This document shows positions 6,457 through 29,826 of a DNA stretch of 61,708 nt, one piece after another (within the stretch, counting starts at the first letter, position 1; each line of letters opens with the position of its first letter). A model generated the notes under the pieces. That model saw only the letters and a program-made list of their open reading frames with translations. It was not told the DNA's origin and searched no databases. The position numbers and the translations under genes were made by a program. Source of the DNA: Candidatus Cacconaster equi (GTDB lineage Bacteria > Bacteroidota > Bacteroidia > Bacteroidales > UBA932); contig JAGHSK010000003.1 in NCBI GenBank assembly GCA_018065895.1, forward strand, positions 1 through 61,708, read 5' to 3'.

Positions 6457-6466
6457 TGGAGTTCCG

Positions 6467-7096: not shown

Positions 7097-7112
7097 ATTT
7101 TCATCAGTCTTA

Positions 7113-9469: not shown

Positions 9470-9481
9470 ATGACAATGAGT

Positions 9482-12400
9482 CTATTCCTTATATTCGTGG
9501 TCGATTGTAGATACTCCGAGAGTCATCTCCTCGAGAACATCAAGAAGGACTTTTACCGTTTCCAGAGCCGTGAATATGGTTACGTTGTTTTCTACTGCCG
9601 TACGGCGGATTTCATATCCGTCAAGGTGTGTCGAGCGCTGGTTCACGTCAATCGTGTTGATGACATAACTTACGTGCCCCTTGCGCAAGGCTGTGCATAT
9701 GTCGTCGCTGCCTTCACTCAACTTCTTGAGCCAGCGTGTTCTGATACCACGGCTTTTGAGAAATTCAGCGGTTCCTTTTGTCGCTTCTATATTGAATCCC
9801 AGGTCGTAGAAACGCTTTACCAGAGGCAGCGCCTCCTCCTTGTCCTTGTCAGCCAGCGTTACCAGAATCGTTCCGTAGTTTACCACCGACATTCCTGATG
9901 CCCTTAAGGATTTGTATAGGGCCCTGTTGAGTGATATGTCGTATCCTATGGCTTCTCCGGTTGATTTCATCTCAGGTGACAGGTATGTGTCTATTCCCTT
10001 TATCTTGTTGAAAGAGAATGCAGGAGTTTTTACGTAATAGCGTTTTCTCTCCGGAAGATAGGTCTGGGTAAAACCTTGCTCACGGAGCGAGTGTCCGAGC
10101 ATTACCATAGTGGCGATTTTCGCCATTGGAATTCCCGTTGATTTGGACAGGAAAGGAACTGTTCTCGATGACCGCGGATTGACTTCGATCACATATACCT
10201 CGTCATTCTTGTCAACGATATATTGGATGTTGAACAAGCCGACTATTCCAATCTCCCTGCCGAGCCGGACAGTGTAGTCGATTATTTTCTGTTTGACACT
10301 CTGACTTAAAGAGAATGACGGATACACGCTTATGGAGTCTCCGGAGTGGATGCCTGTCTTTTCAACGTGTTCCATAATGCCTGGAATAAGAACGTTCTCC
10401 CCGTCGCATATCGCATCGACTTCAGTTTCACGCCCCATAATGTATTTGTCCACGAGAACCGGTGAGTTTTCGTTTATTTCCACGGCATTGTGCAGATAGT
10501 GGCGCAAAGTGTCCTCATTTCCTACAATCATCATTGCGCGTCCACCGAGTACGAAACTTGGACGGACAAGAACCGGATATCCGATCTCCTCAGCTGCCTT
10601 GACGCCCTCTTCAACATCGGTCACAGCCTTGGCTTTCGGTTGAGGAATTCCTGTCCTGCGCATGATTGCTTCAAACAGTTTCCGGTCTTCCGCATTGTCA
10701 ATGGCCTCTATCTGTGTTCCGATGATTGGAACTCCAAAATCGGCAAGAGGTCCTGCCAGATTGATGGCCGTCTGGCCTCCCAGGGTGACAATCACGCCAT
10801 CAGGCTTCTCAAAATCAATTACGTTCATCACGTCCTCGACTGTCAGAGGCTCAAAGTACAGTTTGTCTGATATGGTGTAGTCGGTGGATACGGTCTCAGG
10901 GTTGTTGTTGATGATGATTGCTTCATATCCCGCTTCACGTATCGCCCAAATGGCGTGAACGGTGGAGTAGTCGAATTCCACGCCCTGACCGATTCTGATA
11001 GGACCGGCTCCGAGAACTATTATCTTTTTGCGGTTGCTTGAGACACTTTCGTTTTCCTGCTCGTAGGTTGAGTAGAAATACGGCACGTAGGTGTCAAATT
11101 CGGCTGCACAGCTGTCAATGAACTTGTAAACTGGAGTAATGCCCGCTTTCTTGCGGAAATTGAAGACGTCCTTGAAGCTCATACCCCAAAGCTGTCCGAT
11201 GAATTTGTCGCTGAATCCAAGCCTCTTGGCCTGACGAAGCAATACTTTGTCCTTCGGAGAGGCTTTCAGAAGATTCTCCATCCTGACTATATTCACAATC
11301 TTTTCCAGGAACAGCATATCTATCTTTGTCCTGTCGTAGATGTGCCGGATATCAATGCCGTTGCGGATGAGCTGAGTGATTGCCAGCAGGTGGTCATCAG
11401 GGAAATTGATGATGTACTTGAGCAACTCTTCATCGCTCATGGTTTCGAATTTCTTCTTGTACAGATGGGATACTCCGATTTCAAGCGACCTGATTGCCTT
11501 GAGCAGACTCTCCTCCACGGTACGTCCGATACTCATCACCTCTCCGGTGGCTTTCATCTGAGTTCCGAGTTCGTTGATTGCCTCACTGAATTTGTCGAAC
11601 GGGAAACGTGCCACCTTTGTTACCACGTAATCGATTGAAGGCTCGCAGCATGCAGGCGCTCCGGCTATCATGATCTCGTCAAGAGTCAGTCCTGCGGCTA
11701 TCTTTGCCGTAACCCTCGCGATAGGGAAACCGCTGGCTTTGGAGGCAAGTGCTGAAGAACGGGACACGCGCGGGTTGACTTCGATGATATAGTAGTTGAA
11801 GGAGAGAGGATCAAGGGCGAACTGTACGTTGCATCCGCCTTCAATCTCAAGAGCACGGATGAGTTTAAGCGCACTGGTTCTGAGCATCTCATACTCCTTG
11901 TCAGCAAGAGTCTGGACCGGAGCAACTACAATCGAATCTCCGGTATGAATGCCGACAGGGTCAACGTTTTCCATTGAACAGATCGTGATCGCAGTGTCCT
12001 TGCTGTCGCGCATCACTTCGAATTCAATCTCTTTGAAGCCTTTTACACTCTTCTCTACAAGAACCTGATGTACAGGGGAAAGTGCGAGGGCATTGCGCAT
12101 CATCTCACGCAGTTCCTCTTCATTTTCCGCAAATCCTCCGCCTGTTCCCCCAAGAGTGAATGCCGGACGCAGAACCACAGGATATCCTATATTTTCCGCG
12201 ATCTTTACGGCTTCCTCAATGGAATAGCATATTTCAGAAGGGATTACAGGCTCTCCGAGACTGATGCAAAGCTCTTTGAAAAGTTCACGGTCTTCGGCTT
12301 TCTCGATGCTTTCGAAGGATGTTCCGAGAATTTCCACATTACATTCGTCAAGTACCCCTTTCTTGGCAAGCTTCACTGCCAGATTCAATCCGGTCTGTCC

Positions 12401-12673
12401 ACCGAGACCCGGAACGAGTGCGTCGGGCCGCTCGTATCGTATTATTTTGGCGACGTATTCCAAGTCAAGCGGCTCCATATATACCTTGTCGGCAATATGT
12501 GTATCGGTCATTATGGTGGCCGGGTTGGAGTTCACCAGAACAACTTCATATCCCTCTTCCTTGATGGCCAGACAAGCTTGTGTTCCCGCGTAATCGAATT
12601 CGGCAGCCTGACCTATGATGATAGGGCCGGAACCGATTACCATTACTTTCTTTATATCTTTCCTTCTTGGCAT
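9482..12673 (-). CDS. carB: carbamoyl-phosphate synthase large (synthetase) subunit
   Basis: Makes carbamoyl phosphate from bicarbonate, ammonia and two ATP. The 1063-residue product has two homologous ATP-grasp halves (IGQAAEFDYAGTQA and IGQGVEFDYSTVHA each open one half) and a C-terminal MGS-like allosteric domain (IEATKGTAEFLKSRGI, LKKLSEG, YVINT). The Thr, Lys and Asn positions that bind UMP or IMP in E. coli CarB look conserved. Length is near the 1073 residues of E. coli CarB, with no sign of damage. It begins 2 bp after carA. Because the partner CarA looks glutaminase-dead, this subunit may receive free ammonia rather than glutamine-derived ammonia. Confidence 0.97.
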   Translation of the reverse strand: MPRRKDIKKVMVIGSGPIIIGQAAEFDYAGTQACLAIKEEGYEVVLVNSNPATIMTDTHIADKVYMEPLDLEYVAKIIRYERPDALVPGLGGQTGLNLAVKLAKKGVLDECNVEILGTSFESIEKAEDRELFKELCISLGEPVIPSEICYSIEEAVKIAENIGYPVVLRPAFTLGGTGGGFAENEEELREMMRNALALSPVHQVLVEKSVKGFKEIEFEVMRDSKDTAITICSMENVDPVGIHTGDSIVVAPVQTLADKEYEMLRTSALKLIRALEIEGGCNVQFALDPLSFNYYIIEVNPRVSRSSALASKASGFPIARVTAKIAAGLTLDEIMIAGAPACCEPSIDYVVTKVARFPFDKFSEAINELGTQMKATGEVMSIGRTVEESLLKAIRSLEIGVSHLYKKKFETMSDEELLKYIINFPDDHLLAITQLIRNGIDIRHIYDRTKIDMLFLEKIVNIVRMENLLKASPKDKVLLRQAKRLGFSDKFIGQLWGMSFKDVFNFRKKAGITPVYKFIDSCAAEFDTYVPYFYSTYEQENESVSSNRKKIIVLGAGPIRIGQGVEFDYSTVHAIWAIREAGYEAIIINNNPETVSTDYTISDKLYFEPLTVEDVMNVIDFEKPDGVIVTLGGQTAINLAGPLADFGVPIIGTQIEAIDNAEDRKLFEAIMRRTGIPQPKAKAVTDVEEGVKAAEEIGYPVLVRPSFVLGGRAMMIVGNEDTLRHYLHNAVEINENSPVLVDKYIMGRETEVDAICDGENVLIPGIMEHVEKTGIHSGDSISVYPSFSLSQSVKQKIIDYTVRLGREIGIVGLFNIQYIVDKNDEVYVIEVNPRSSRTVPFLSKSTGIPMAKIATMVMLGHSLREQGFTQTYLPERKRYYVKTPAFSFNKIKGIDTYLSPEMKSTGEAIGYDISLNRALYKSLRASGMSVVNYGTILVTLADKDKEEALPLVKRFYDLGFNIEATKGTAEFLKSRGIRTRWLKKLSEGSDDICTALRKGHVSYVINTIDVNQRSTHLDGYEIRRTAVENNVTIFTALETVKVLLDVLEEMTLGVSTIDHEYKE

Positions 12674-12675
12674 AA

Positions 12676-13761
12676 CTATTTCTCCTGTCCGTTAGTTTTC
12701 ATCCATTCAACAAATGTATCGAAGAAGAGTTTCTCCTGAGGGCCTGGAGCTCCTTCCGGATAAAATTGGGTCGACAAGACCATATCGCGCCTGCATGCAA
12801 TGCCTTCGACGCTGCGGTCAACCACGTCCTCGCAAATCACCTTGACTGCAGAATCCTTGATGGCGGATGCATCCACAGTGAAGTTGTGGTTATGCTCTAC
12901 CGTGATGATTCTGCCGTCCTTGACCATCTTTACCGGTCTTCCACCGTGGTGGCCGGCTTTGAGCTTGCTGATCAGAGCGCCGTATGAAAGGGCTATTATC
13001 TGGTGGCCGAGAGCAATTCCCGCTACCGGGATCTTTCCCTTGAGTCCATTGACCAGCTCTATCAGCTCAGGAAGTTCGCGCGGGTCGCCCGGTCCGCTGG
13101 AGATGAGAACTCCGTCCGGTCTGAACTGCATAACCTCTTCCATGGATGTGCTGAAAGGAACGACTGTCACGTTGCACCCCATCTTGTTCAGAATGTCAAC
13201 AAGACTGAGTTTGAGGCCGCAATCAATGACTACCACATCAAATTTGTGGCGTTGGGTACGCTTGAACCATCTCTTTTTGCAACTTACTTTTTCAACAGGT
13301 CTTTTTTCGGCCTTGCTCTTCTTTATCAGTTCAAGAGCCTTCTCCTTCGGCATCTCCGCATCTACGATTGCAGCCTTCATGCAGCCTTTGTCGCGGATGA
13401 TCCTGGTGAGCATTCTGGTGTCTATCTCACTTATCGCCGGTATGCCGTGTTCGGCCAGCTCTTCGGAGAGAGTCTTCGTGAATCGGAAATTCGAAGGGGT
13501 TTCGCAGCATTCACGCACTACCATACCTGCCAACGCCGGAGTTCTGTTCTCGAAATCTTCATCGGTGATGCCGTATTGTCCCATAGGAGGATATGTCATC
13601 ACCACAATCTGACCGGCATAAGCCGAATCGGAGAGAATCTCCTGATAGCCTACCATGGAGGTGTTGAAGACAATCTCACCTGCGGAACTGCCTTCCGCAC
13701 CGAAGCCGATGCCCTGGAACACCTCTCCGTTTTCCAGCACAAGTTGTTTAGCTTTTTTCAT
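12676..13761 (-). CDS. carA: carbamoyl-phosphate synthase small subunit with inactivated glutaminase site
   Basis: CarA normally hydrolyses glutamine and channels ammonia to CarB. The 361-residue product is a full-length CarA: N-terminal small-subunit domain (FNTSMVGYQEILSDSAY) and C-terminal class I glutaminase fold (SSGPGDP, GHHGG, CarA-like ending). The usual nucleophile motif GICLGHQ reads GIALGHQ, so Ala250 replaces the cysteine (codon GCT at 13014-13012). The usual HPEASPGP reads YPEGAPGP, so Tyr334 replaces the catalytic His (codon TAT at 12762-12760); Glu336 remains. NHGF reads NHNF, altering a glutamine-pocket glycine. Frame and length are intact, so this is not a pseudogene. It probably serves as a structural partner for an ammonia-dependent synthase. 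Overlaps pyrC by 14 bp. Confidence 0.93.
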   Translation of the reverse strand: MKKAKQLVLENGEVFQGIGFGAEGSSAGEIVFNTSMVGYQEILSDSAYAGQIVVMTYPPMGQYGITDEDFENRTPALAGMVVRECCETPSNFRFTKTLSEELAEHGIPAISEIDTRMLTRIIRDKGCMKAAIVDAEMPKEKALELIKKSKAEKRPVEKVSCKKRWFKRTQRHKFDVVVIDCGLKLSLVDILNKMGCNVTVVPFSTSMEEVMQFRPDGVLISSGPGDPRELPELIELVNGLKGKIPVAGIALGHQIIALSYGALISKLKAGHHGGRPVKMVKDGRIITVEHNHNFTVDASAIKDSAVKVICEDVVDRSVEGIACRRDMVLSTQFYPEGAPGPQEKLFFDTFVEWMKTNGQEK

Positions 13762-15019
13762 ATATGATGTTTCCTTTATATATCGTGGTTATGCATCCGC
13801 CATAAACTTTCCATCCTGCGAAAGGGGTGGAATGTCCCTTTGAAACGAATTTTTCCGGATTGACGGTGAATCCGCCTTCAAGATCGAAAATGGCGATGTC
13901 GGCGCTTTCCCCCTCCGAAAGAGAGCCTCCCGTCGAGAATCTCCTGCGTGGGTTGAAGCACATCAGTTCAATGAGTTTTTCCAAAGATATGATTCCTTTC
14001 TTCACGAGATTTGTGTATAGCACCGGAAATGCGGTTTCCAACCCCGTGATACCCATTGCGCTCTTTTCCAGACCTCTCGATTTTTCTTCCTCAGAGTGAG
14101 GGGCATGGTCCGTAGCGATCATATCTATCGTGCCGTCTTGCAGACCTTTCAGGAGCGCTTCCTTGTCTTCACGGTCTCTTAGCGGGGGGTTCATCTTGAA
14201 ACGTCCGTCTTCCTGAAGATCATCCTGACACAGGGTGAGGTAGTGCGGTCCCGTTTCGCAGGTGACGTCAACGCCTCTCCGCTTGGCCTGGCGTATCAGT
14301 TCCACGCTCTCTTTCGTGCTGATATGGCATACGTGATAGCGGCATCCTGTTTCAGCGGCCAGAAGCAGATCGCGTTCAATCTGTTTCCATTCGCTTTCGG
14401 AACAGATCCCACGATGACCGTGGGCTGCGGCATAGCTTCCTTCGTGAATGTATCCTCCGTGGAGAAGCGAGTTGTCTTCGCAGTGTGCGGCAAGAATAGC
14501 ACCGTATTGCGCTGTCAGGCGCATCGCCGTTTTCATCACTTCGTCATTCTGGACACCGCTTCCGTCATCTGAAAAGCCGGCGCACATCCCTAACATCCCT
14601 TTTACGTCCACCGGTTCAAGCCCTTTGCGCCCTACGGTGATGGAGGCATATGGCCTTACGTCGATGCACGCATCAGCTTGAATGATATCCAGTTCCTTCC
14701 TCAAATTCTCAATGCTGTCGGGAACAGGGTTGAGGTTGGGCATGGGACATACGCAGGTATATCCTCCGTGTGCGGCGGCGAGAGAGCCGGTTCGGATGGT
14801 CTCCTTGTAGGAGTAGCCGGGTTCGCGGAAGTGAACGTGGACGTCGGTGAGTCCATAAGACACGAGTTTGCCGGAAGCATCGATCGTTCTGGCTCCTTCC
14901 GGAGCTTCCATGCCTCTGCCAATCCTTGCAATGATTCCGTTTTCAATGAGAATATCGCCTTCGGATATTCCTTCAGTCCTTGCAAGCTTTCCGTTCCGTA
15001 TGAGAATTTTGTTCCCCAT
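13748..15019 (-). CDS. pyrC: dihydroorotase
   Basis: Cyclises carbamoyl aspartate to dihydroorotate. The 423-residue amidohydrolase has the metal motif DVHVHFREPG, HCEDNSL, HICHISTKES-like segments (CHISTKESVEL) and ATDHAPHSEEE, as expected for the long dihydroorotase type. The ATG at 15019 (MGNKILIRNG) is chosen because it sits 5 nt after the U-tract of the leader terminator; an upstream in-frame ATG at 15043 would lie inside that terminator. First structural gene of the pyr operon. Confidence 0.94.
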   Translation of the reverse strand: MGNKILIRNGKLARTEGISEGDILIENGIIARIGRGMEAPEGARTIDASGKLVSYGLTDVHVHFREPGYSYKETIRTGSLAAAHGGYTCVCPMPNLNPVPDSIENLRKELDIIQADACIDVRPYASITVGRKGLEPVDVKGMLGMCAGFSDDGSGVQNDEVMKTAMRLTAQYGAILAAHCEDNSLLHGGYIHEGSYAAAHGHRGICSESEWKQIERDLLLAAETGCRYHVCHISTKESVELIRQAKRRGVDVTCETGPHYLTLCQDDLQEDGRFKMNPPLRDREDKEALLKGLQDGTIDMIATDHAPHSEEEKSRGLEKSAMGITGLETAFPVLYTNLVKKGIISLEKLIELMCFNPRRRFSTGGSLSEGESADIAIFDLEGGFTVNPEKFVSKGHSTPFAGWKVYGGCITTIYKGNIIYEKS

Positions 15020-15023
15020 ATAC

Positions 15024-15052
15024 AAAAAAAATGACGGCTTCAAATGCCGTCA
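15024..15052 (-). terminator. intrinsic terminator (attenuator) just before pyrC
   Basis: On the - strand TGACGGC and GCCGTCA form a perfect 7 bp GC-rich stem around a 7-nt loop (ATTTGAA), followed at once by eight T residues at 15031-15024. The T-run ends 4 nt before the pyrC ATG. An intrinsic terminator here can only act on transcripts entering the pyr operon, so it is a premature terminator rather than the end of another gene. Its 5' arm contains the stop codon of the leader ORF. Confidence 0.85.
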
Positions 15053-15133
15053 ATCAATGAACAATAATGGAATGAAACTCCCGAAAGCATTTGCAGCAGT
15101 GCTGCCTGAACATAAACGGATGATTCTTTCCAT
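15050..15133 (-). CDS. 27-codon pyr operon leader peptide (pyrL-like)
   Basis: A 27-residue ORF runs from ATG at 15133 to TGA at 15050. It begins MERIIRL and ends PLLFID. It starts 14 nt after the -7 promoter box. Its TGA is the first three bases of the terminator stem, so a ribosome stopping there would cover the 5' arm and prevent hairpin formation. The last 28 nt before and including the stop contain 15 U residues, suiting UTP-dependent pausing of RNA polymerase. An upstream GCAGC/GCTGC hairpin could be a pause site. No amino acid is strongly over-represented, which argues against amino-acid attenuation. Confidence 0.65.
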   Translation of the reverse strand: MERIIRLCSGSTAANAFGSFIPLLFID

Positions 15134-15147
15134 TGCTGTAATTTTGG

Positions 15148-15155
15148 CAAAGGTA
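15148..15155 (-). promoter_or_regulatory. -7 promoter box of the pyr operon
   Basis: TACCTTTG on the - strand matches TAnnTTTG exactly. It places transcription start only a few nt before the leader ATG and about 120 nt before pyrC. No good TTTG element is visible 19-21 bp upstream. It lies back to back with the purine operon promoter. Confidence 0.6.
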
Positions 15156-15270
15156 CTACTTTTCGTTCATATTATGTAATATGTGACAAGAATTTGCAAC
15201 ATAAAGTTATTCACATCCAAATGTTGAAAATTACCACACGCATTTTCCCCGTTATTTGTCGCCGATGATG

Positions 15271-15278
15271 TATTTTTG
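15271..15278 (+). promoter_or_regulatory. -7 promoter box of the purine operon
   Basis: TATTTTTG matches TAnnTTTG and lies 29 bp before the first purine gene. The 115 bp between this box and the pyr promoter is AT-rich, and I see no long palindrome suggesting a repressor site. A TTTG is present but only 12 bp upstream, which is not the usual spacing. Confidence 0.5.
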
Positions 15279-15307
15279 CGGATAATTCTTTTTAAAATTT
15301 TGTCTCC

Positions 15308-15988
15308 ATGAAACTCGTTTACACAGGTAAAACAAAAAATGTCTATGCCCTTGAAAACGGCAATTTTTTACTCAAATTCAAGGATGACTGCACCGGCAAG
15401 GACGGTGTCTTCGATCCCGGTGAGAATTCTGTGGGCTTGACCATTGACGGAGTAGGTGACGTGAACTTGAGAATGTCGGTTTATTTCTTTGAAAAAATAA
15501 ATGCGGCAGGCATCCGCACCCATTATGTGAAGGCGAATCTTGGTGACACCACAATGGAAGTTCTGCCTGCCAGGGTTTTCGGCAAGGGGCTTGAGGTCAT
15601 CTGCCGTCACAAGGCAGTCGGCAGTTTTTATCGCAGATACAGCGATTATGTGGAAGAGGGTGCTGACCTTCCTGAATATGTGGAAACCACTTTCAAGAAT
15701 GATGAGAAGGGTGATCCTCTGGTAACCAAAGATGCCCTTGTCATTCTGGGCGTGATGAGCGACAGGCAGTACGAGGATATCAAAATCATGACACAGAAGA
15801 TCACGCGTATCGTAGCAGATGATCTCAAGGCCAAAGGACTCGTGCTTTATGATATCAAATTCGAATTCGGATACGACAAGGATGGAAACGTCATGTTGAT
15901 TGATGAGATTGCTTCAGGCAATATGCGCGTCTACAAGGATGGAAAATATATCGATCCGATGACTCTTTCCAAACTATTTTTCGCGTAG
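15308..15988 (+). CDS. divergent SAICAR synthetase paralogue (PurC-like)
   Basis: Homologue of phosphoribosylaminoimidazole-succinocarboxamide synthase, which joins aspartate to CAIR using ATP. The 226-residue product has the N-terminal GKTKNVYAL, the first family signature in altered form ([13 protein letters not shown]) and a perfect second signature (LYDIKFEFG). The segment usually read as DEISPDxSRxWD is [14 protein letters not shown], so the SPD portion is lost. A second, more conventional purC lies 4.2 kb downstream in the same operon. This copy may be a second active enzyme with altered substrate handling or a regulatory homologue. It is first in the operon, 6 bp before purE. Confidence 0.8.
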
Positions 15989-15994
15989 TCCGGT

Positions 15995-16462
15995 ATGAAA
16001 GCAGGAATAGTGATGGGGTCCACAAGTGACCTCGAGGTAATGTCCGCTGCATTCAAGGTCTTCGATGAATTCGGTGTAGAATATGAAAAGAGAGTGATTA
16101 GTGCGCACAGGGCTCCGAAATTGCTCTTTGAATGGGCATCCGGAGCCAAGGACCGCGGAATCGACGTTATCATTGCCGGTGCGGGAGGAGCCGCTCATCT
16201 TCCCGGTGTGACTGCAGCGATGACCATTGTCCCTGTCATAGGTGTTCCGATCCTTGGAAAATGTTTCGGAGGGCTGGACTCTCTTCTTTCAATGGTCCAG
16301 ATGCCTTCCGGCATTCCGGTGGCGACCGTGGCCGTGAATGGGGCGAAAAATGCAGCGTTGCTCGCAATATCCATCATGGCGCTCAGCGACAAGAGACTCT
16401 CGGAAAAACTGCTCGAATTCAGGAAAAAGCAGACCGAAGCGATAGAAAATACACAAATCTGA
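15995..16462 (+). CDS. purE: N5-carboxyaminoimidazole ribonucleotide mutase
   Basis: Converts N5-CAIR to CAIR. The 155-residue product has [13 protein letters not shown], the active-site SAHRAP and [13 protein letters not shown], then a class I-type VPVIGVP segment. Class I enzymes normally need PurK to make N5-CAIR; no purK is present in this window. Co-transcribed with its neighbours (6 bp before, 4 bp after). Confidence 0.95.
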
Positions 16463-16466
16463 CACT

Positions 16467-19400
16467 ATGGAAAGCATCCGCATTTTTGTAGAAAAGTATT
16501 CGGGATTTCAGGTAGAGGCGCAGAGCCTCCTCTCCGAACTGAACGAAAACCTTTCTCTGGGGCTTCGTTCCCTGAGGCTTCTGAATGTATATGACTTGTG
16601 CGGCTTCAGCAGGGAACTGCTGGAAAAGTGCAAATATTCTGTATTCGGAGAGGTTGTAACCGACAACGTGACTGAAGAGTTTCCTCTTGAAGGCAGAAAA
16701 TATCTTGCAATAGAATACATTCCGGGGCAATTTGACCAGAGAGCATCTTCGGCAGTGGATTGTGTACATCTGATAGACCCTTCTGCAGACGTGAAAATAA
16801 AAAGTTCACGGCTACTGGTCTTCGACGATGATATTACTGAAGCCGATCTGGCCTCTGTAAGGCATTATTGCATAAATGCAGTCGAGTCCCGTGAGAAGGA
16901 TCTCTCCAAATTGGAATTCAATACCAGGGCGGATGTACGTCCGTTGGAGGATTTTTCCGGTTTTACGGAGATGTCGGAAGCCGATTTCCAGCCGTTCTGC
17001 CTGAAATGGGGGTTGGCAATGAACGTCGATGACCTGCGTGAAGTTGTCAATTATTTCAGGAATGAGCATCGCAATCCTACTGAGACGGAACTGCGCATTC
17101 TTGACACCTACTGGAGCGATCACTGCCGTCATACCACCTTTACGACGGAACTGACAGAGATAAAGATAGACGAATCATTCATAAAGGATGAAATAGAATC
17201 GTCCCTTGGAATGCTGCATGATATGCGGGACGAGCTCGGCAGGGAAGGGAAGAGCCTCTGTCTTATGGAACTTGCCACAATCGGTGGAAGGTACCTCAGG
17301 AAGAAGGGCCTTCTCGATGATATGGAACAAAGCGAGGAGAACAATGCCTGCAGCATATTCATTGACGTGGATGTAAACGGGCAGAAGGAGAAGTGGCTGC
17401 TTCAGTTCAAGAATGAGACACATAACCATCCTACGGAAATTGAACCGTTCGGAGGTGCTGCCACTTGTCTTGGCGGAGCCATCCGTGATCCGCTTTCAGG
17501 CAGGGCATACGTATATCAGGCAATGCGCGTTACCGGTGCAGGGAATATATACAAGCCTGTTTCTGAGACAATTCAGGGAAAACTTCCTCAAAAGGTCATC
17601 AGCCGCAAGGCGGCTGCCGGCTATTCGAGTTACGGCAATCAGATAGGCCTTGCCACCACCCATGTACGTGAAATATACCATGAAGGCTATACGGCCAAGC
17701 GCATGGAGGTGGGTGCAGTCGTAGGTGCTGTCAAAGCTTCCAACGTCAGGCGTGAAAGGCCCGCTGCCGGAGACGTAATACTTCTTCTTGGCGGAAGGAC
17801 AGGCAGGGACGGTATAGGCGGGGCGACCGGTTCGTCGAAAGAACATACTGAAAGCTCCCTTGAAACGTGCGGGAGTGAGGTACAGAAAGGCAATGCCCCT
17901 GAAGAGCGCAAACTGCAGCATCTCTTCCGCCGTCCGGAGGTTACGCGTTTGATAAAGAAGTCAAACGATTTCGGTGCAGGTGGAGTGAGTGTTGCCATAG
18001 GCGAACTTGCGGATGGTCTGGACATATATCTTGAAAGGGTACCGGTGAAGTACAGCGGATTGAATTCGATGGAACTCGCCATAAGCGAGTCGCAGGAGAG
18101 AATGGCCGTTGTGATAGAGTCGCGCGACAGGACTCTGTTCGAGTCGTATTGTGCAAGCGAGAATATCGAGGTTACCTATGTGGCAGACGTTACCGACAGC
18201 GGCAGGATGAGAATTTTCCACAACGGGGAGACGGTCGCTGACCTCTCACGGGAATTCATTGACAGCGCCGGGGCAAAGCATTACACCAGGGCTGCTGTCC
18301 TTCCAGTTGAGGATCGGGACATTTTCCGCCAGGAGGTGAAGGGCGGCACCATCGAAGAAAAGATGTGCAATATGCTCTCTTCCGACAATGTCACTTCACA
18401 GAGAGGTCTTATTGAGATGTTCGATTCGACTATCGGACGTTCCACGGTGCTTATGCCTTTCGGTGGAAAATACCAGAAGACGGAAACGCAGGTGTCGGTG
18501 CAGAAACTTCCCGTTGACGGATATACCGACACGGCGAGCATGATGGCTTTCGGCTTCAACCCGTATCTGACGCTCTGGAGCCCGTATCACGGTGCGGCAT
18601 ACTCCATGATCGAGGCATGTACCAAGATTGTGGCGGCAGGAGGAGAATGGTCGACTATGCGTTTCTCCTGCCAGGAATATTTTGAAAGGATGACCCATGA
18701 CCCGCACAGCTGGGGCAAACCGCTGGCAGCGCTTCTCGGCTCTCTGAAGATGCAGGCCGAACTTGGATTGCCGTCAATTGGAGGAAAGGATTCCATGAGC
18801 GGAACTTTTGAGAACCTTAACGTTCCACCTACGTTGATAGCATTCGGCATAACTCCGGTAAATGCATCTGTGGTCATTTCACCTGAATTCAAGAAACCGG
18901 GCAACAGGATATATCTCGTAAGACACACTCCTCTGCAGAACAGAATGCCTGACGTTGCCCAGCTCAAACGCAACTGGGACTTTGTGCACAGCCGCATTTC
19001 AGAGGGAGAGATAGTGTCGGCATATTCCATCGGGTTCGGAGGCATCGCCGAGGCTCTTGCCAAATGCTCATTCGGCAATGCTCTCGGCTTTGACGTCAAT
19101 CTTGGGGATGATTTCCTGTTTGATTACAAGTATGGTTCGATACTCGTTGAGGCCAAGTGCGAACTTGATTATGAGAATGCCGCTTTGCTGGGTGAGGTGA
19201 CATCTGCGGAGAAAGGTACAAGCCGGATAAATGGTGAAGAAATTCACAATGAAAAGATGCTTGAAGCCTGCTGTGGCAGGTTCTCAAGAATTTACCCTGC
19301 AACAGCTGAAGCGTCACACAAAGACATGCTGTCTTGCGGAACGGAGTCTGTTGGACACGCACATCCAGTCCGCTATAAGGGTGAACCTGTAGAGAGCCCT

Positions 19401-20201
19401 GTAGTTTACATCCCTATTTTCCCGGGCTCAAATTGCGACTATGATACTGCTAAAGCATTCCGCATGGCAGGAGCTCAGGTACAATTCGGAGTTTTCCGGA
19501 ATTTGACGGGAGATGACGTGCTTGCCTCAATCGCGAGAATGGCTGAAGAGATATCAAAATGCCATATTCTGGCTTTGTGCGGGGGCTTTTCTCTCGGGGA
19601 TGAGCCCGACGGCAGTGCAAAATTCATTGCAAGCGTTCTGAATGCTCCTGCTGTGGCACATCAGGTGGAAGAACTTATTGCCCGGGGAGGTTTGATACTT
19701 GGCATATGCAATGGCTTCCAGGCTCTCGTGAAGAGCGGTCTGCTGCCATACGGCAAACTCGGATGTGTCGAAAAAGATTCTCCGACACTATTCCGAAACG
19801 ACATCAACCGTCACGTTTCCCAGATTGTGACTACTCGTGTGGCATCCGTCAACTCCCCTTGGCTTGCTGGGATGAAGGTTGGGGATACTTTCAGCATTGC
19901 CGTAAGTCACGGAGAAGGAAAGTTTGTGGTCTGTGAACAGCTGGCCCGCGAACTTTTCAGCAACTCACAGGTTGCTTTCCAATATGCCGATCCCGTTTCC
20001 GGAGAAGCCACGATGGAGTCACCATATAATCCGAACGGCTCATATTACGCCATTGAAGGTATTGTGAGCCGTGATGGTCAGATCCTTGGCAAGATGGGGC
20101 ATAGCGAGAGATATGAGAATAACGTTTTCAAGAACATCTCCGGTGAACGCCTTCAGCCATTGTTCGTGAATGCAGTGAATTATTTTCGTAAAACAGAGTG
20201 A
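16467..20201 (+). CDS. purL: phosphoribosylformylglycinamidine synthase, large single-chain type
   Basis: Converts FGAR and glutamine to FGAM with ATP. The 1244-residue product is the single-chain PurL type: N-terminal PurS-like domain, linker, two AIR-synthetase-like halves ([12 protein letters not shown], then [28 protein letters not shown]-region, [22 protein letters not shown]) and a C-terminal class I glutaminase from about residue 980. The glutaminase is intact: Cys1081 in [10 protein letters not shown], and His and Glu in the late motif GHSERY. This contrasts with CarA and PurF in the same locus. Lies 4 bp after purE and 1 bp before purC. Confidence 0.97.
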   Translation: [1244 protein letters not shown]

Positions 20202-20202
20202 T

Positions 20203-20916
20203 ATGTCAGAAAGAAAGCTGATATTCGACGGAAAGGAGAAACAGATTTTCGATACGGAAAATCCTGACGAGGTTCTCATTCATTTCAAGGATGACACGAC
20301 CGCTTATGACGGGCTTAAGCGTGCGGTTTTTCCCGGCAAGGGAGCATTGAACTGCAACATTTCCGCACTCATATTCGATAACCTGGTCAAAGCGGGGATA
20401 AGAACCCACTACATTGAAAAGGTTGGGGAATGTGACCTCCTCTGCCGTAAGGTGGAGATGATTCCGATACATCTGATCGTACGCAATTACATCGCTGGAA
20501 GCACAGCGGACATGCTTGGTCTTGAAGATGGATTCAAGCCTTCCAATGTGGTGTATGAGTTCAAGTATGACAATCAGGGTTTGGGGGATCCTTTGATCAA
20601 CCGGCATCACGCCGTAGCTCTCGGACTGCTCACTTATTCTGAACTGGATGAGATGCTGGCTATTGTTTCCAAAGTCAATGATGTGCTTGTGGAACTCTTC
20701 ACCAAGGCCGGAATCAAACTCGTGGACTACAGAATCGAGATGGGCCGCACAGAATCCGGGGAACTTGTGGTCGCCGATGAAATCAGCCCTGATACAAGCC
20801 GTATGTGGGATGCTGCCACGAATGAGAAACTTGACAAGGACAGGTTCCGTCTTGACCTCGGATTCATCTGTGATTCATACAGAAAAATACTGGAACGTTT
20901 GAAAGGCGTAAAATAA
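20203..20916 (+). CDS. purC: phosphoribosylaminoimidazole-succinocarboxamide synthase
   Basis: Makes SAICAR from CAIR, aspartate and ATP. The 237-residue product follows the E. coli-like pattern: GKEKQIFDTENPDEVLIHF, signature one (IPIHLIVRNYIAGS, with His where Glu is usual), signature two as LVDYRIEMG and the catalytic DEISPDTSRMWD followed by KLDKDRFR. Of the two homologues in the operon this is the one with the canonical C-terminal active-site segment. It sits between purL and purF. Confidence 0.93.
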   Translation: MSERKLIFDGKEKQIFDTENPDEVLIHFKDDTTAYDGLKRAVFPGKGALNCNISALIFDNLVKAGIRTHYIEKVGECDLLCRKVEMIPIHLIVRNYIAGSTADMLGLEDGFKPSNVVYEFKYDNQGLGDPLINRHHAVALGLLTYSELDEMLAIVSKVNDVLVELFTKAGIKLVDYRIEMGRTESGELVVADEISPDTSRMWDAATNEKLDKDRFRLDLGFICDSYRKILERLKGVK

Positions 20917-20923
20917 TACAGAC

Positions 20924-22273
20924 ATGAGCGTATTCGGAGCATATGGGGTAAAGGATGCCGCATCCATAATCTATTATGGACTTCATGCTTTGCAGCACAG
21001 AGGTCAGGAGGGCGCGGGAATCGTAACTTTTAACGCTGACGGCGAGTCATATCGCAAGCGGGGTCTCGGACTTGTCAATGAGGTGTTCACTCAGGAAAAC
21101 ATCTCATCACTCAAGGGCGATATGGGTATAGGCAATGTCCGCTATGCCAATGCAAGCAAAGGCGGACAGGACAACCTGCAGCCTTTCTTCTTCCATCATC
21201 ATTCCGGCGATTTCGCCATTGCAAGTGAGGGTTCTCTGGTGAATTCCGCACAGATCGTGAGATACCTCGAACAACGAGGCAGCCTTTTTCAGAGCGCGAT
21301 GGATTGTGAGATACTTGGCCATCTTATCAAGAAGGACAGCAACAAACCGCGCATATATCAGATATCAGAAGCCCTCAACATGATGGAAGGAAGTTTCGCC
21401 TTCCTGATAATGACCAGGAACAGGATATATGCGGCTCGTGACAAATATGGATTCAAACCTTTGTCGATAGGGAAACTGGGGGAAGGATACGTCATCAGCA
21501 GCGAAACGTGCGCATTCGATATCATCGGGGCCACTTTCATAAGAGATATTGAGCCTGGAGAGATTGTCACGATTGACCATCACGGTATCAGAAGTATGAG
21601 ATTTTCGCAGTTCCAGCGCAGGAAGATGTGCGCCATGGACTACATTTATCTTGCCCGTCCGGACAGTGACATAGAAGGATGCAACGTGCATGCCTATCGG
21701 AAGGAGAGTGGACGACGGCTTTATCGTGAGTGTCCGTGCGACGCCGATATCGTGATAGGTGTTCCGGATTCCAGCTTGAGCGCCGCTATGGGATATGCAG
21801 AAGAGAGTGGAATCCCTTACGAAATAGGTCTTGTGAAGAGCAAGTATGTGGGACGCACCTTCATTCAGCCTACGCAGGAGATGAGGGAGAAGGGTGTCAA
21901 GATGAAACTTTCCGCCGTCCGCAGCATTGTCGGAGGCAAACGCGTCGTTATGGTGGATGATTCGATTGTCCGTGGAACCACCTCGCTGAAAATAGTGAAG
22001 CTGCTTCGTGATGCGGGAGCCACTGAAGTCCACGTCCGCATCGCCAGCCCGAGGATGACTCATCCGTGCTTCTATGGGGTCGATACTTCGACTGAAGAGG
22101 AGCTTTTATGTTCCCACAGGACCACAGAGGAGGCCTGCGCTGTAATCGGTGCGGATTCTCTCGGATATCTGAGTTATGAATCTACGATTGCGGCATCTGG
22201 CCGCCAGGATATGTGTCTGGCCTGTTTCAACGGTGAATATCCTACAGTTCTGTACAAAAACAAAAACAAATAG
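20924..22273 (+). CDS. purF: amidophosphoribosyltransferase lacking the glutaminase nucleophile
   Basis: PurF makes 5-phosphoribosylamine from PRPP and glutamine-derived ammonia, the first step of purine synthesis. The 449-residue product has both domains. The N-terminal Ntn glutaminase fold keeps YYGLHALQHRGQEGAG and GNVRY (Arg73), and Asp127. The N-terminus reads MSVFGAYG where (M)CGVFG is expected, so the cysteine nucleophile is absent. The oxyanion motif usually HNGNL reads SEGSL (Glu102 for Asn). No upstream in-frame codon before the preceding TAA supplies a Cys. The C-terminal PRPP domain is intact (VVMVDDSIVRGTTS). Likely ammonia-dependent. Met removal would leave Ser1, a possible but doubtful alternative nucleophile. 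Confidence 0.93.
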   Translation: MSVFGAYGVKDAASIIYYGLHALQHRGQEGAGIVTFNADGESYRKRGLGLVNEVFTQENISSLKGDMGIGNVRYANASKGGQDNLQPFFFHHHSGDFAIASEGSLVNSAQIVRYLEQRGSLFQSAMDCEILGHLIKKDSNKPRIYQISEALNMMEGSFAFLIMTRNRIYAARDKYGFKPLSIGKLGEGYVISSETCAFDIIGATFIRDIEPGEIVTIDHHGIRSMRFSQFQRRKMCAMDYIYLARPDSDIEGCNVHAYRKESGRRLYRECPCDADIVIGVPDSSLSAAMGYAEESGIPYEIGLVKSKYVGRTFIQPTQEMREKGVKMKLSAVRSIVGGKRVVMVDDSIVRGTTSLKIVKLLRDAGATEVHVRIASPRMTHPCFYGVDTSTEEELLCSHRTTEEACAVIGADSLGYLSYESTIAASGRQDMCLACFNGEYPTVLYKNKNK

Positions 22274-22278
22274 ATATT

Positions 22279-23310
22279 ATGGCTAAATCTTACGAAAACG
22301 CAGGTGTTAATCTGGAAGCCGGATATGAAGTGGTCCGTCGCATCAAGCAGCACGTCGCATCTACAAAACGAATCGGTACGATGGGGAATATCGGAGCCTT
22401 CGGTGGGATGTTCGACTTGTCGCAACTCGGTGTCAGGGAACCGGTCCTTGTCAGTGGAACCGACGGAGTTGGCACCAAACTGAAGATAGCGTTTGCCATG
22501 GACAAACACGACACAATAGGAATTGATGCCGTGGCAATGTGTGTCAATGACGTTCTTGCCCAGGGGGCCGAGCCTCTCATTTTCCTTGATTATGTCGCTT
22601 TGGGACACAACATCCCGGCGAAGGTTGAGGCAATTGTAGCAGGTGTGGCTGAAGGCTGCCGTCAGGCCGGATGCGCCCTTGTCGGTGGAGAGACTGCGGA
22701 AATGCCGGGAATGTATGCTGACGGCGAATACGACATTGCCGGATATACTACCGGTGTGGTGGAAAAGTCGAAACTGATTGACGGGACAAAGGTGAAGGTG
22801 GGCGATGTCCTTGTTGGAATTGCTTCCACGGGAGTCCATTCAAACGGCTTCAGTCTTGTCAGAAAGATTGTCGCGGACAGAAAGCTCAGTTATTTCGACA
22901 GTGTCGAGGAATTTTCGGGACGTAAGTTGGGAGATGTTCTGCTCACTCCTACGAAGATATATGTCAAACAGGTTCTGGATGTAATCAGGAATTGTGACGT
23001 CCACGGAATATGCCACATAACAGGCGGTGGGTTTGACGAGAACATTCCAAGAGTCCTGCAGAAGGGGCAGGGCCTTGAGATATATGAAGGAACTTGGGAG
23101 ATTCTCAAGGTGTTCGAGGTGTTGGAGAAATGGGGAGGTATTCCTCATCGCGAAATGTTCAACATATTTAATATGGGCATAGGAATGGTTGTGGTCCTTG
23201 ACGCCGCTGAGGCGGACAAAGCCATTTCAATACTCGAAGGTCACGGAGAGAAGGCTTCAGTGATAGGAAAGGTTACTGACAAGGAGGGAATCAACATAAT
23301 TCTGAAGTGA
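22279..23310 (+). CDS. purM: phosphoribosylformylglycinamidine cyclo-ligase (AIR synthetase)
   Basis: Closes the imidazole ring, converting FGAM to AIR with ATP. The 343-residue product has the family glycine-rich N-terminal segment (NIGAFGGMFDLS), SGTDGVGTKLKIA, DAVAMCVNDVLAQGAEPLIFLDY and VGGETAEMPGMY, all hallmark PurM motifs. Length is standard. Starts 5 bp after purF; its TGA stop shares one base with the purN ATG. Confidence 0.97.
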   Translation: MAKSYENAGVNLEAGYEVVRRIKQHVASTKRIGTMGNIGAFGGMFDLSQLGVREPVLVSGTDGVGTKLKIAFAMDKHDTIGIDAVAMCVNDVLAQGAEPLIFLDYVALGHNIPAKVEAIVAGVAEGCRQAGCALVGGETAEMPGMYADGEYDIAGYTTGVVEKSKLIDGTKVKVGDVLVGIASTGVHSNGFSLVRKIVADRKLSYFDSVEEFSGRKLGDVLLTPTKIYVKQVLDVIRNCDVHGICHITGGGFDENIPRVLQKGQGLEIYEGTWEILKVFEVLEKWGGIPHREMFNIFNMGIGMVVVLDAAEADKAISILEGHGEKASVIGKVTDKEGINIILK

Positions 23311-23876
23311 TGAATCGTCTGGCTGTTTTCGCAAGTGGTTCGGGGACCAATTTCGAGGCAATCGCGGCTGCCTGTCGTGACGGCGTCATTGACGCGCAGG
23401 TTTCCCTTCTGGTATGTGACCATCCTGAGGCTCCTGTTGTTGAGAGAGCGCACAGATTCGGAATTCCGGTGTTCTCCTTCAGGCCCGGAGAATTCGGTTG
23501 CAAGGCGGATTATGAGAAGCAGATTGTTGAGAGGCTTGATTCACTTGAAGTGGAACTTGTATGTCTCGCCGGCTATATGCGCATCGTAGGCCCTGTCCTG
23601 CTCGAAGGCTATGCCGGGCGGATCATCAACATTCATCCTGCCCTTCTTCCATCATTCAAGGGCGCACACGCCATCCGTGACGAGTTTGAATATGGCGTCA
23701 AGGTATTCGGTGTTACGATTCATTATGTCGACGAAACGCTTGACGGAGGAAAAATCATAGCTCAGAGGGGGTTTGAGTATTACGGCGACGATATCGCGCT
23801 GGTGGAGGCACGTACCCATGAAATTGAGCATGAATTGTATGTTGAAACAATAAAGAAATTACTGGAAAAAAAATAA
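23310..23876 (+). CDS. purN: phosphoribosylglycinamide formyltransferase
   Basis: Formylates GAR using 10-formyl-tetrahydrofolate. The 188-residue product has the phosphate loop FASGSGTNFEAI, the catalytic Asn and His in INIHPALLPSFKG and the catalytic Asp in HYVDETLDGG. I take the ATG at 23310, which overlaps the purM stop as TGATG, rather than the GTG at 23307. The cofactor can be supplied by FolD, encoded at the end of the same operon. Confidence 0.96.
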   Translation: MNRLAVFASGSGTNFEAIAAACRDGVIDAQVSLLVCDHPEAPVVERAHRFGIPVFSFRPGEFGCKADYEKQIVERLDSLEVELVCLAGYMRIVGPVLLEGYAGRIINIHPALLPSFKGAHAIRDEFEYGVKVFGVTIHYVDETLDGGKIIAQRGFEYYGDDIALVEARTHEIEHELYVETIKKLLEKK

Positions 23877-23883
23877 TTGCTGT

Positions 23884-25413
23884 ATGAGAGCATTAATCAG
23901 TGTCAGCGACAAAGGTGGAGTCGTGGATTTTGCGAAAGGTCTCGAATCAATGGGCTGGGAAATAATAGCCACCGGCGGAACAAAGAAACTTCTCGACTCT
24001 AACGGAGTTAAAACCATCGGAATCAGCGAGGTTACGGGATTCCCGGAGATATGCGACGGACGTGTGAAGACACTCCATCCGAAGGTCCATGGCGGCCTTC
24101 TTGCGAGAAGGGACGATCCTAATCATCTCAAGGCTCTTGAAGACAACGGAATAGAATTCATTGACATGGTATGTGTCAATCTGTACCCTTTCCGCAGTAC
24201 AATCGCCAAAGAGGGTGTTACTATGGACGATGCAATCGAGAATATTGACATCGGCGGACCAAGCATGCTGCGCAGCGCCGCAAAGAACTATAAGGACGTT
24301 ACTGTCGTCTGCGATCCTGCTGATTATGGCAGAGTGCTTTCGGAAATCAGGGAGAATGGCGGCACATTGCTTCAGACACGTCTGGAACTTTCGGCCAAGG
24401 CTTATACCCATACTGCCGAATATGACACGTGCATCGCTACCTTTATGAGAGAGAAGGCCGGTCTTCCTGAGAAATTGTTCCTCGAATATGATTTGAAACA
24501 GCCGCTCCGCTATGGGGAGAACCCTCATCAGAGTGCCAGATTCTTTGCATCTGCCTCCATAGTGGGATATTCGCTGGCAAATGCGCGCCAGATTCAGGGC
24601 AAGGAACTCTCATACAACAATATTCAGGATGCCAATGCGGCATTGAATATCGTCAGGGATTTCAAGGAACCTTTCTGTGTCGGTCTGAAACATATGAACC
24701 CTTGCGGAGCTGCTGTCGGCAAGAGCATAGAAGAGGCTTGGCAGAAAGCTTATGAATCCGACAAGGTGAGCATCTACGGAGGCATTGTGGCCGTCAACAG
24801 GGAAGTGACCGCGGAACTTGCAATGGGTTGGAAGCCTATATTTCTTGAGATTGTGATGGCCCCATCATATACAAAAGAGGCTCTCGAAATACTTTCATCG
24901 AAAAAGAACCTTCGTGTAATGGAGGTTGAGATGCCTGATACTACGGAGCCTGCAATGCAGTATGTCAGCGTGAACGGAGGAATGCTTGCACAGAGCCTGG
25001 ACTCTGACATTATCAGACTGACTCCGGAAATGTGCGTTACCAAAGTCAGACCCGAAGAGGGAATATTCGCTGATATGGAATTCGGCTGGAAGATTGTAAA
25101 ACACGTCAAATCCAATGCGATAGTAGTTGTCAAGGATGGCCATACCCTTGGCGTGGGAGCCGGTCAGATGAATCGTGTGGGGTCTGCTGAAATAGCTTTG
25201 AAAGAGGCGGCTGCAGCCGGTTTTAAAGAGGGATTGATTCTTGCTTCCGACGGATTCCTTCCATTTGACGATACCGTCGCCCTGGCATCAAGATATGGAG
25301 TGACAGCCATTGTTCAGCCGGGAGGCAGCATTCGTGACAATGAATGTATAGTCAAGGCAGATGAACTGGGCATTACCATGCTCCTGACGGGAGAACGTCA
25401 TTTCAAACACTGA
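23884..25413 (+). CDS. purH: bifunctional AICAR transformylase / IMP cyclohydrolase
   Basis: Carries out the last two steps to IMP. The 509-residue product has an N-terminal MGS-like cyclohydrolase domain (SVSDKGGVVDFAKGLE, TLHPKVHGGLLARRD) and a C-terminal AICAR transformylase domain with the catalytic KHMNPCG (usually KHxNPCG) and SDGFLPFDDT. Both domains appear complete. Located 7 bp after purN. Confidence 0.97.
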   Translation: MRALISVSDKGGVVDFAKGLESMGWEIIATGGTKKLLDSNGVKTIGISEVTGFPEICDGRVKTLHPKVHGGLLARRDDPNHLKALEDNGIEFIDMVCVNLYPFRSTIAKEGVTMDDAIENIDIGGPSMLRSAAKNYKDVTVVCDPADYGRVLSEIRENGGTLLQTRLELSAKAYTHTAEYDTCIATFMREKAGLPEKLFLEYDLKQPLRYGENPHQSARFFASASIVGYSLANARQIQGKELSYNNIQDANAALNIVRDFKEPFCVGLKHMNPCGAAVGKSIEEAWQKAYESDKVSIYGGIVAVNREVTAELAMGWKPIFLEIVMAPSYTKEALEILSSKKNLRVMEVEMPDTTEPAMQYVSVNGGMLAQSLDSDIIRLTPEMCVTKVRPEEGIFADMEFGWKIVKHVKSNAIVVVKDGHTLGVGAGQMNRVGSAEIALKEAAAAGFKEGLILASDGFLPFDDTVALASRYGVTAIVQPGGSIRDNECIVKADELGITMLLTGERHFKH

Positions 25414-25427
25414 TACAATCGACTGAT

Positions 25428-26687
25428 ATGGCAAAGGACAAGAAAGTACTGGTAATAGGTGGAGGTGGCCGCGAACACTCTATTGTGGAGGCCTTTTCAC
25501 GTTCGCCCCAGGTGGCGCGGATTTATTGCGCTCCCGGAAATGCCGGAACGGCTCTTCTTGCGGAAAACGTGCCTCTCAAAGATACGGATATCGAGGGACT
25601 TGAGAAATTCGCGAAGGACAATTCCGTGGATTTGACCGTAGTCGGGCCGGAAGCGGCTTTGGCGGAGGGAATCGTGGATTCATTCCGTGCTGCCGGTCTG
25701 CGCATTTTCGGCCATACGAAAGCTGCTGCGCGCATAGAAACCAGCAAGGAGTTCGCAAAACAGGTAATGGCCCGGTATGATGTACCGACTGCTGCATATC
25801 GTACCTTCACTGATTACTCCCAGGCTTTCGAATATGTGTCGTCACGGCCTTTTCCGGCTGTGCTCAAATACGATGGACTTGCGGCGGGGAAAGGCGTTGT
25901 CATAGCTCAAGACATCAAAGAGGCTGAGACCGCATTGAAAGATATGCTTCTTGACGGTCGCTTCGGCATAGGGAAGGTTGTCATAGAGGATTTTCTCACC
26001 GGACCTGAATTTTCTTTCATGTGCTTCGTGTCCGGGAACAGGATCTGGCCCATGCCGCTTGCCCAGGATCACAAACGTGCGTTTGATGGAGACAAAGGCC
26101 CTAATACCGGTGGAATGGGGGCATATACTTCATTGCCGTTCATTTCGGATGCTGATCAGAAGTATGCATTAGAAAAGATAATGCGCAAGGTTGCCGAAGG
26201 GATGGTTTCAGAAGGTTCTCCTCTTACCGGAGTTCTTTACGGCGGGCTGATGAAAACCTCTTGTGGGATAAAGGTGATAGAATTCAATGCGCGTTTCGGG
26301 GATCCGGAGACAGAAGTCGTTCTCCCACTCCTCAAGAGCGATGCCTATGAGATTTTTTCTGCCGTTGCAGATGGAAAAGATGCGGCAGCTCCTCAATGGT
26401 CGTCAGAAACCACGATGGGTGTGGTGCTCGCATCGAAGGGCTATCCTGGAAGCTATCAGAAGGGATTCGAAATTCTCGGAACGGAAAATGTGGAGGGAAT
26501 GGTCTTCCATATGGGCACTAAACGGGAGAATGGCAGTCTCCTTACCTCAGGAGGCCGGGTACTGATGTGTGTGGCTAAAGGTGAGAACCTCGCCCAGGTG
26601 CGCAGGAAGGTATATGACGATGTGTCCAGAATCTCCTGCACCAATTTGTATTTCAGAAAAGATATTGCACATATAGCATTTGAATAG
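25428..26687 (+). CDS. purD: phosphoribosylamine-glycine ligase (GAR synthetase)
   Basis: Ligates glycine to the phosphoribosylamine made by PurF, using ATP. The 419-residue ATP-grasp enzyme begins with the typical GGGGREHSIVEAF and contains VVGPEAALAEGI, KYDGLAAGKGV, GPNTGGMGAY and EFNARFGDPE. Phosphoribosylamine is unstable, so close co-expression with PurF is expected. It is four genes downstream in the same operon. Confidence 0.97.
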   Translation: MAKDKKVLVIGGGGREHSIVEAFSRSPQVARIYCAPGNAGTALLAENVPLKDTDIEGLEKFAKDNSVDLTVVGPEAALAEGIVDSFRAAGLRIFGHTKAAARIETSKEFAKQVMARYDVPTAAYRTFTDYSQAFEYVSSRPFPAVLKYDGLAAGKGVVIAQDIKEAETALKDMLLDGRFGIGKVVIEDFLTGPEFSFMCFVSGNRIWPMPLAQDHKRAFDGDKGPNTGGMGAYTSLPFISDADQKYALEKIMRKVAEGMVSEGSPLTGVLYGGLMKTSCGIKVIEFNARFGDPETEVVLPLLKSDAYEIFSAVADGKDAAAPQWSSETTMGVVLASKGYPGSYQKGFEILGTENVEGMVFHMGTKRENGSLLTSGGRVLMCVAKGENLAQVRRKVYDDVSRISCTNLYFRKDIAHIAFE

Positions 26688-26690
26688 ATT

Positions 26691-29746: not shown

Positions 29747-29766
29747 GATTTTTCGTTTTGCGGGTA

Positions 29767-29774
29767 CAAATATA
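29767..29774 (-). promoter_or_regulatory. -7 promoter box of glnN
   Basis: TATATTTG on the - strand matches TAnnTTTG and lies 20 bp before the glnN ATG, between that gene and the terminator of the upstream nagA-like gene. This supports separate transcription of glnN. Confidence 0.6.
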
Positions 29775-29785
29775 TGGAAAAATGA

Positions 29786-29826
29786 CAAAAATGGCACCGC
29801 ATTTTTATTTTGCGGTGCCATTTTTG
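29786..29826. terminator. strong bidirectional intrinsic terminator
   Basis: A perfect 16 bp inverted repeat (arms 29786-29801 and 29811-29826, core ATGGCACCGCA) with a 9-nt AT loop. A/T runs at the outer ends of the arms give a U-tract in either direction. It ends transcription of the - strand deacetylase gene before glnN. Confidence 0.9.

Follow-up and report, generated by a model that had tools for sequence, protein, structure and literature searches.

Loss of glutaminase residues in CarA and PurF within part of a gut Bacteroidales genus, with a probable move of nucleotide synthesis from glutamine to free ammonia

In textbook accounts, purine and pyrimidine synthesis both take the nitrogen for their opening steps from glutamine. 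The window analysed here, a stretch of 61,708 nucleotides from Candidatus Cacconaster equi (assembly GCA_018065895.1, contig JAGHSK010000003.1), encodes a carbamoyl-phosphate synthase small subunit, CarA, and an amidophosphoribosyltransferase, PurF, in which catalytic residues of the glutaminase domain have been replaced. The pyrimidine genes occupy the minus strand (5374-15043, from pyrB to carB, carA and pyrC, the four genes scanned with profiles), and the purine operon runs divergently from them on the plus strand (15308-27551). As a preliminary description of the sequence had stated, carA (12676..13761, minus strand, 361 aa) and purF (20924..22273, plus strand, 449 aa) lie about 7 kb apart in these divergent operons, from 13761 to 20924. 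For comparison we used 80 named loci, the best 80 of 233 confirmed (L numbers), and searches of 61 and of 40 genomes (G numbers). The assembly of the source genome (G000) is 1.65 Mb and 84% complete, which bounds all absences reported for it. Cacconaster is the genus name given to GTDB Bact-11, family UBA932, from mammalian guts, in the accessible part of PMC8957277.

CarA clears the curated similarity cut-off of its family (TIGR01368, 384 bits against 307). In a comparison with solved structures its nucleophile elbow reads GIALGHQ, where E. coli CarA has GICLGHQ, and the nucleophile Cys of GICLG is thus replaced with Ala. In the alignments, the Ala250 codon (13012..13014, minus strand) falls at the site of the E. 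coli nucleophile Cys269 and the Tyr334 codon (12760..12762, minus strand) at that of His353. The catalytic triad region is QFYPEG instead of QGHPEA, with His changed to Tyr and Glu kept. Cys was absent from the nucleophile site in all 10 distinct readable loci with CarA of this degenerate type (Ala in 3, Asn in 2, Gly in 4 and Ser in 1), and the His site was not His in 9 of the 10, G024 retaining it. The gene for the large subunit, carB (9482..12673, minus strand), is full length (1457 bits to TIGR01369, spanning positions 1-1051 of the 1052 in the profile), and carA and carB are separate frames, not one chain as in the carbamoyl-phosphate synthase (CPS) I type. A sample of 393 genomes of the order yielded matches in 324, the best CarA outside the source genome being 41% identical. 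An order-wide spread of degenerate CarA was rejected, as Cys and His are both present in each of the 27 best loci newly fetched.

PurF clears the TIGR01134 cut-off (475 bits against 350) and has the phosphoribosyl pyrophosphate (PRPP) loop VVMVDDSIVRGTTS, with CLACF also retained and the PRPP domain intact. Its N-terminus reads MSVFGAYG where relatives have CGVFG, the first two codons (Met-Ser, 20924..20929, plus strand) standing in the place expected for the nucleophile Cys1. A mis-called start was rejected, because an in-frame TAA (20909-20911) starts 15 bases before the ATG at 20924, and none of the four intervening codons (AAT AAT ACA GAC) encodes Cys. In the oxyanion region, ASEGSL replaces AHNGNL, with Glu-Gly instead of Asn-Gly; the Glu102 codon (21227..21229, plus strand) falls at the site of the oxyanion-hole residue Asn101 in E. 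coli numbering. Short Cys-less PurF was found as 15 distinct sequences with open frames and 65-88% identity (G000, G030, G020, G005, G021, G009, G015, G024, G012, G031, L006, L007, L008, L009 and L013). L004, L005 and L018 repeat G030, G021 and G031, respectively; L004, with the same PurF match as G030, is Candidatus Cacconaster merdequi from horse faeces. The oxyanion Asn is changed to Asp or Glu in 14 of the 15 (L009 retains it), and Arg73 is retained in 3 of the 15. Ser as a replacement nucleophile after removal of Met was rejected, since Gly stands there in G030, G012 and G031, and also since the oxyanion Asn is gone in those 14 sequences.

Assembly error behind the CarA and PurF states was rejected, because the same states recur in relatives from other assemblies. 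This recurrence of the replaced residues (15 PurF sequences, 10 of 10 CarA loci) bears out the preliminary claim that both proteins lost their glutamine chemistry. The objection that intact paralogues exist elsewhere found no support: the source genome, 84% complete, gave a single PurF match and a single CarA match, with no second copy of either. Of the 10 genus genomes with short Cys-less PurF, 8 had no other PurF match, and G012 and G031 had a Cys-containing second copy. Beside these, the PurF proteins of L010 (L010:10001-11347) and L017 (L017:10001-11353) keep Cys1 and have an altered Arg73 region (GHVLYTAAE and GQVLYTTAG, respectively); they may represent stages on the way to losing glutamine use.

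PurL, the formylglycinamidine ribonucleotide synthase of the same operon (16467..20201, plus strand; TIGR01857, 1729 bits), provides an internal contrast, its glutaminase being intact with Cys1081 in GICNGFQ and with GHSER, as previously described. The operon begins with a purC-like gene under the family cut-off (15308..15988, plus strand; TIGR00081, 119.6 bits against 189.9) and purE (15995..16462, plus strand; TIGR01162, 201.9 bits against 149.6). It continues after purL with purC for phosphoribosylaminoimidazole-succinocarboxamide synthetase (20203..20916, plus strand; TIGR00081, 196.8 bits against 189.9), so that two purC-like genes stand within one purine operon. After purF come purM, purN, purH, purD and folD (22279..27551, plus strand), each over the cut-off of its NCBIfam model. 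On the other strand, pyrC, for dihydroorotase (13748..15043, minus; TIGR00857, 413 bits, over the cut-off), adjoins carA, and pyrB, for aspartate carbamoyltransferase (5374..6456, minus; TIGR00670, 346 bits against 237), closes the far end of the run. Beyond the purine genes lies a glutamine synthetase-like gene (27569..29821, minus strand; TIGR00653, 1.2e-12, far below the cut-off), which we read as type III from its length; with it in the cluster, the cell is probably still able to make glutamine. A nitrilase-type amidohydrolase near the cluster (32266-33051; PRK10438, 209 bits against 249) could release ammonia from amides.

The preliminary description had called for a survey of the other glutamine amidotransferases, and the survey showed a pattern wider than the two losses: GuaA lacks its glutaminase, NadE is short, and PyrG, GlmS and a convincing GltB were not found in the source genome, while HisH and PurL are intact. 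The GuaA of G000 (contig C36:1479-2399, L245) consists of the synthetase domain only, and a class I glutaminase encoded apart from it, as a subunit of this GMP synthase, was not found in that genome. Synthetase-only GuaA also occurs in G030, G020, G005 and G024 (frames of 324-376 aa with that of G000). The GuaA of G016, G004, G061, G019 and G062 retains about 110 residues of the glutaminase, with no Cys elbow, and the glutaminase-less and truncated kinds lie on two separate branches of the GuaA tree. Full-length GuaA with a Cys elbow and HPE was seen in 22 genomes, all of which keep the Cys (the elbow of G035 and G025 being LLAVCYGAQ). Short paralogues accompany the full protein in G002, G017, G028, G036 and G063, and a short GuaA stands alone in G033; no GuaA was found in G008, G013, G003, G011, G021, G029 or G018.

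NadE frames of 280-404 aa, too short for a glutaminase part, were found in 37 of the 40 genus genomes, including G000, the exceptions being G008 (646 aa) and the partial frames of G014 and G019. PyrG, the CTP synthase, was found in 18 of the 40, including G015, G012 and G031; its domain was not found in the other 22, including G000 and G002, the latter 98% complete in about 10 contigs. Only G018, G019 and G029 among the 40 showed GlmS, and it was not found in G000; where it is missing, glucosamine-6-phosphate might come from salvage or from NagB running in reverse. A 617-aa GATase_6 protein of G062 was rejected as GlmS, since it starts MSGICGI and looks like asparagine synthase. The search for glutamate synthase gave weak partial matches in 13 of the 40 genomes (at most 22 bits), and 6 of the 40 exceed the curated cut-off; the frames concerned measure about 490-506 aa. 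We take them not to be GltB, since the one frame read (G024) begins like IMP dehydrogenase. HisH of G000 has an intact GICVGMQ (TIGR01855, 209 bits), and the PurL Cys is kept in every readable PurL of genomes with Cys-less PurF or degenerate CarA.

Of the 40 genus genomes, 30 allowed both PurF and CarA to be read. Both were degenerate in 13 and both intact in 16, one paired Cys-less PurF with intact CarA and none showed the reverse combination, and the co-occurrence on which the preliminary description had made its proposal depend was thus found. The PurF of the 13 double-degenerate genomes is short and Cys-less in 7 and of a distant kind, type B, in 6. Among the 10 genomes outside this table, 9 had no CarA match and G019 had no PurF match; G012 and G031, with both Cys-less and Cys-containing PurF, were scored intact, and G006 (type A) and G004 (type B), whose PurF N-terminus is cut off, were labelled by family. 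On a species tree of 39 of the 40 genomes built from RpoB, NadE and MnmA (G014 was omitted for too little sequence, and the NadE of G008 as a different type), carriers stand on several deep branches. A Pagel-type likelihood test gave p = 0.014 for PurF with CarA and p = 0.043 for CarA with GuaA, both uncorrected and obtained on one midpoint-rooted tree with few events and with the distant type B counted as Cys-less PurF. G033, which has only short GuaA with Cys-containing PurF and intact CarA, was omitted from the GuaA counts of this test.

In the PurF tree (49 rows), all 16 rows without the Cys, 15 of them distinct, group in a single clade adjoining L010, the locus whose PurF has Cys and an altered Arg73 region. 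This suggests a single loss of Cys1, followed by decay of the other glutamine-site residues. In the CarA tree (41 rows) the degenerate type is likewise one clade, with L014 at its base. A second group (G008, G011, G013, G016, G019, G061 and G062) has CarA with Cys and with the catalytic His changed to Phe or Tyr. Six of these genomes carry type-B PurF, which starts MGGLFG or similar and has no Cys at the nucleophile site; no PurF match was found in G019. This second sub-lineage thus has its own losses, in parallel with the first: in the CarA His, in type-B PurF and in the truncated GuaA glutaminase (5 genomes). G019 has two CarA genes, L171 with His lost and the partial L389, which is intact; its assembly is 3.4 Mb and may be mixed.

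The dead domains are under constraint, the CarA glutaminase part less so than the rest. The ratio of non-synonymous to synonymous substitution rates (dN/dS) was 0.03-0.12 in the PurF and CarA domains of the closest pairs. For G020/G005 it was 0.061 in the glutaminase part and 0.046 in the phosphoribosyltransferase (PRT) part of PurF, and 0.048 in the N part and 0.111 in the glutaminase part of CarA. The corresponding PurF values, glutaminase and PRT, were 0.062 and 0.032 for G009/G015 and 0.118 and 0.101 for G012/G031; the saturated pair G000/G030 was excluded. Such constraint fits a structural or coupling role of the dead domains better than decay.

Taken together, we consider it probable, at roughly three chances in four, that CarA and PurF are pseudo-glutaminase enzymes, in which nucleotide synthesis would have moved from glutamine to free ammonia and the dead domains would be kept as a scaffold. 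The residues lost, the synthase motifs retained, the purifying selection and the co-occurrence across genomes are the observed support. With both glutamine sites dead, CarA would remain as a small subunit shaping and stabilising CarB, and PurF would still carry the PRPP transferase. Ammonia is high in the hindgut, so that the lineage would need no glutaminase at these steps; free ammonia would enter the synthase sites directly, yielding carbamoyl phosphate for pyrimidines and phosphoribosylamine for purines. High ambient ammonia may thus have relaxed the need for glutamine, and the same shift may have taken away the GMP synthase glutaminase domain in G000.

Several observations weigh against this interpretation. 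HisH and PurL have intact glutaminases, so that some steps in the cell still depend on glutamine, and G009 and G015 retain intact GuaA. The discordant genome, G025 (L108), carries a type-B PurF that lacks the Cys, and its CarA and GuaA are both intact. The association of PurF with GuaA on the tree was not significant (p = 0.13, uncorrected), and G033, if counted as glutaminase-less, would be one more genome against a GuaA association; its near-identical relative G036 has full GuaA. The pair G015/G024 is more diverged, and its CarA gave dN/dS of 0.120 in the N part and 0.267 in the glutaminase part (dS 1.3), indicating weaker constraint there. The nearest outside row in the CarA tree is the partial second CarA of G019 (L389), with Cys and His kept. 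L014 pairs a CarA lacking Cys with a PurF that has it, so the two did not go in a single event; the gene trees make both losses old. The interpretation in the preliminary description is supported in part: with each gene tree read as one ancestral loss in its clade, independent co-losses are few, about two. The second of these rests on the distant PurF type, which is about 30% identical, and its genomes may have a different protein as their PurF; type B is also present in further families of the order, so its role may be a different one.

An alternative we consider unlikely is that the enzymes are still glutamine-fed, with ammonia from glutamine provided in trans by another amidotransferase subunit or by a free-standing glutaminase or amidase. 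The glutamine synthetase-like gene that closes the cluster and the nitrilase-type amidohydrolase, below its cut-off, are in keeping with such a supply, as is the use of glutamine indicated by HisH and PurL. The class I matches of the source genome, however, are just CarA, HisH and one unassigned protein, and its sole GATase_6 match is PurF itself, in a search confined to these two folds and not extended to glutaminases of other folds such as GlsA. Similarly improbable is relaxed decay, with bases coming from salvage and with CarA and PurF on their way out and performing no working ammonia reaction. The 1.65 Mb assembly (84% complete) would agree with this, and the failure to find PyrG in 22 of the 40 genomes suggests some dependence on salvage. 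Against it stand the low dN/dS of both domains in the closest pairs, the open frames of the 15 diverged PurF sequences, and the presence of purE to purD, pyrB, carAB and pyrC, over family cut-offs. That the glutaminase domains were re-purposed as sensing or binding regulatory pseudo-enzymes, the ammonia shift being secondary, is very doubtful: the dead domains are conserved rather than deleted, whereas GuaA lost its whole domain, but CarA residue 269 drifts (Ala, Asn, Gly, Ser) as lost chemistry predicts, and no new conserved pocket has been demonstrated.

Beyond CarA and PurF, the ammonia shift may extend to a wider claim, on which we are evenly divided. A gut Bacteroidales clade would have moved much of its nitrogen insertion to ammonia (CPS, PurF, GMP synthase and NAD synthetase, with GlmS and glutamate synthase undetected for the most part), at least twice in one GTDB genus, and the dead CarA and PurF domains would serve as scaffold or as new regulatory pockets. 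If the shift is real, the glutamine-donor rule for the entry steps of nucleotide synthesis would depend on the environment, the proteins would be natural models of glutaminase-domain roles beyond catalysis, and host or diet ammonia would be predicted to control growth of these hindgut bacteria. The presence of intact and degenerate relatives in one genus permits direct comparison.

Accounts of the separate components exist. Human CPS1, in which Ser294 replaces the Cys, uses ammonia only, according to the accessible text of PMC4655335. The CarA described here resembles the CPS1 of ureotelic vertebrates, as that text presents it, in keeping an inactive class I glutaminase-like domain with the nucleophile Cys replaced. 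It differs in being a separate bacterial subunit, encoded with CarB among pyrimidine genes, and in having lost both Cys and His, whereas CPS1 is one chain of 1500 residues, activated by N-acetylglutamate and serving urea synthesis. For PurF, the available portion of PMC3261824 reports that the E. coli enzyme without Cys1 is inactive with glutamine and still uses ammonia, and that archaeal PurF' may use ammonia, a dependence on ammonia having been proposed. The protein described here, like the PurF' of Crenarchaeota in that portion, is a PurF homologue without the N-terminal Cys that sits near purine genes; the crenarchaeal protein is accompanied there by a Cys-containing PurF, while G000 gave one PurF match only. 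The GuaA of G000 and the NadE of 37 of the 40 genomes are like glutaminase-less GMP synthase and the short ammonia-type NAD synthetase in having the synthetase domain alone, but here they occur alongside degenerate CarA and PurF, and the GuaA loss lies on two branches. The preliminary description knew of no comparable system; precedents exist for each enzyme separately (CPS I and archaeal PurF'), and bacteria with CarA and PurF both glutaminase-dead were not found described in the open literature, a search in which subscription journals were scarcely covered. As each component has a precedent, the novelty lies in their combination, in its recurrence within one genus and in its testability.

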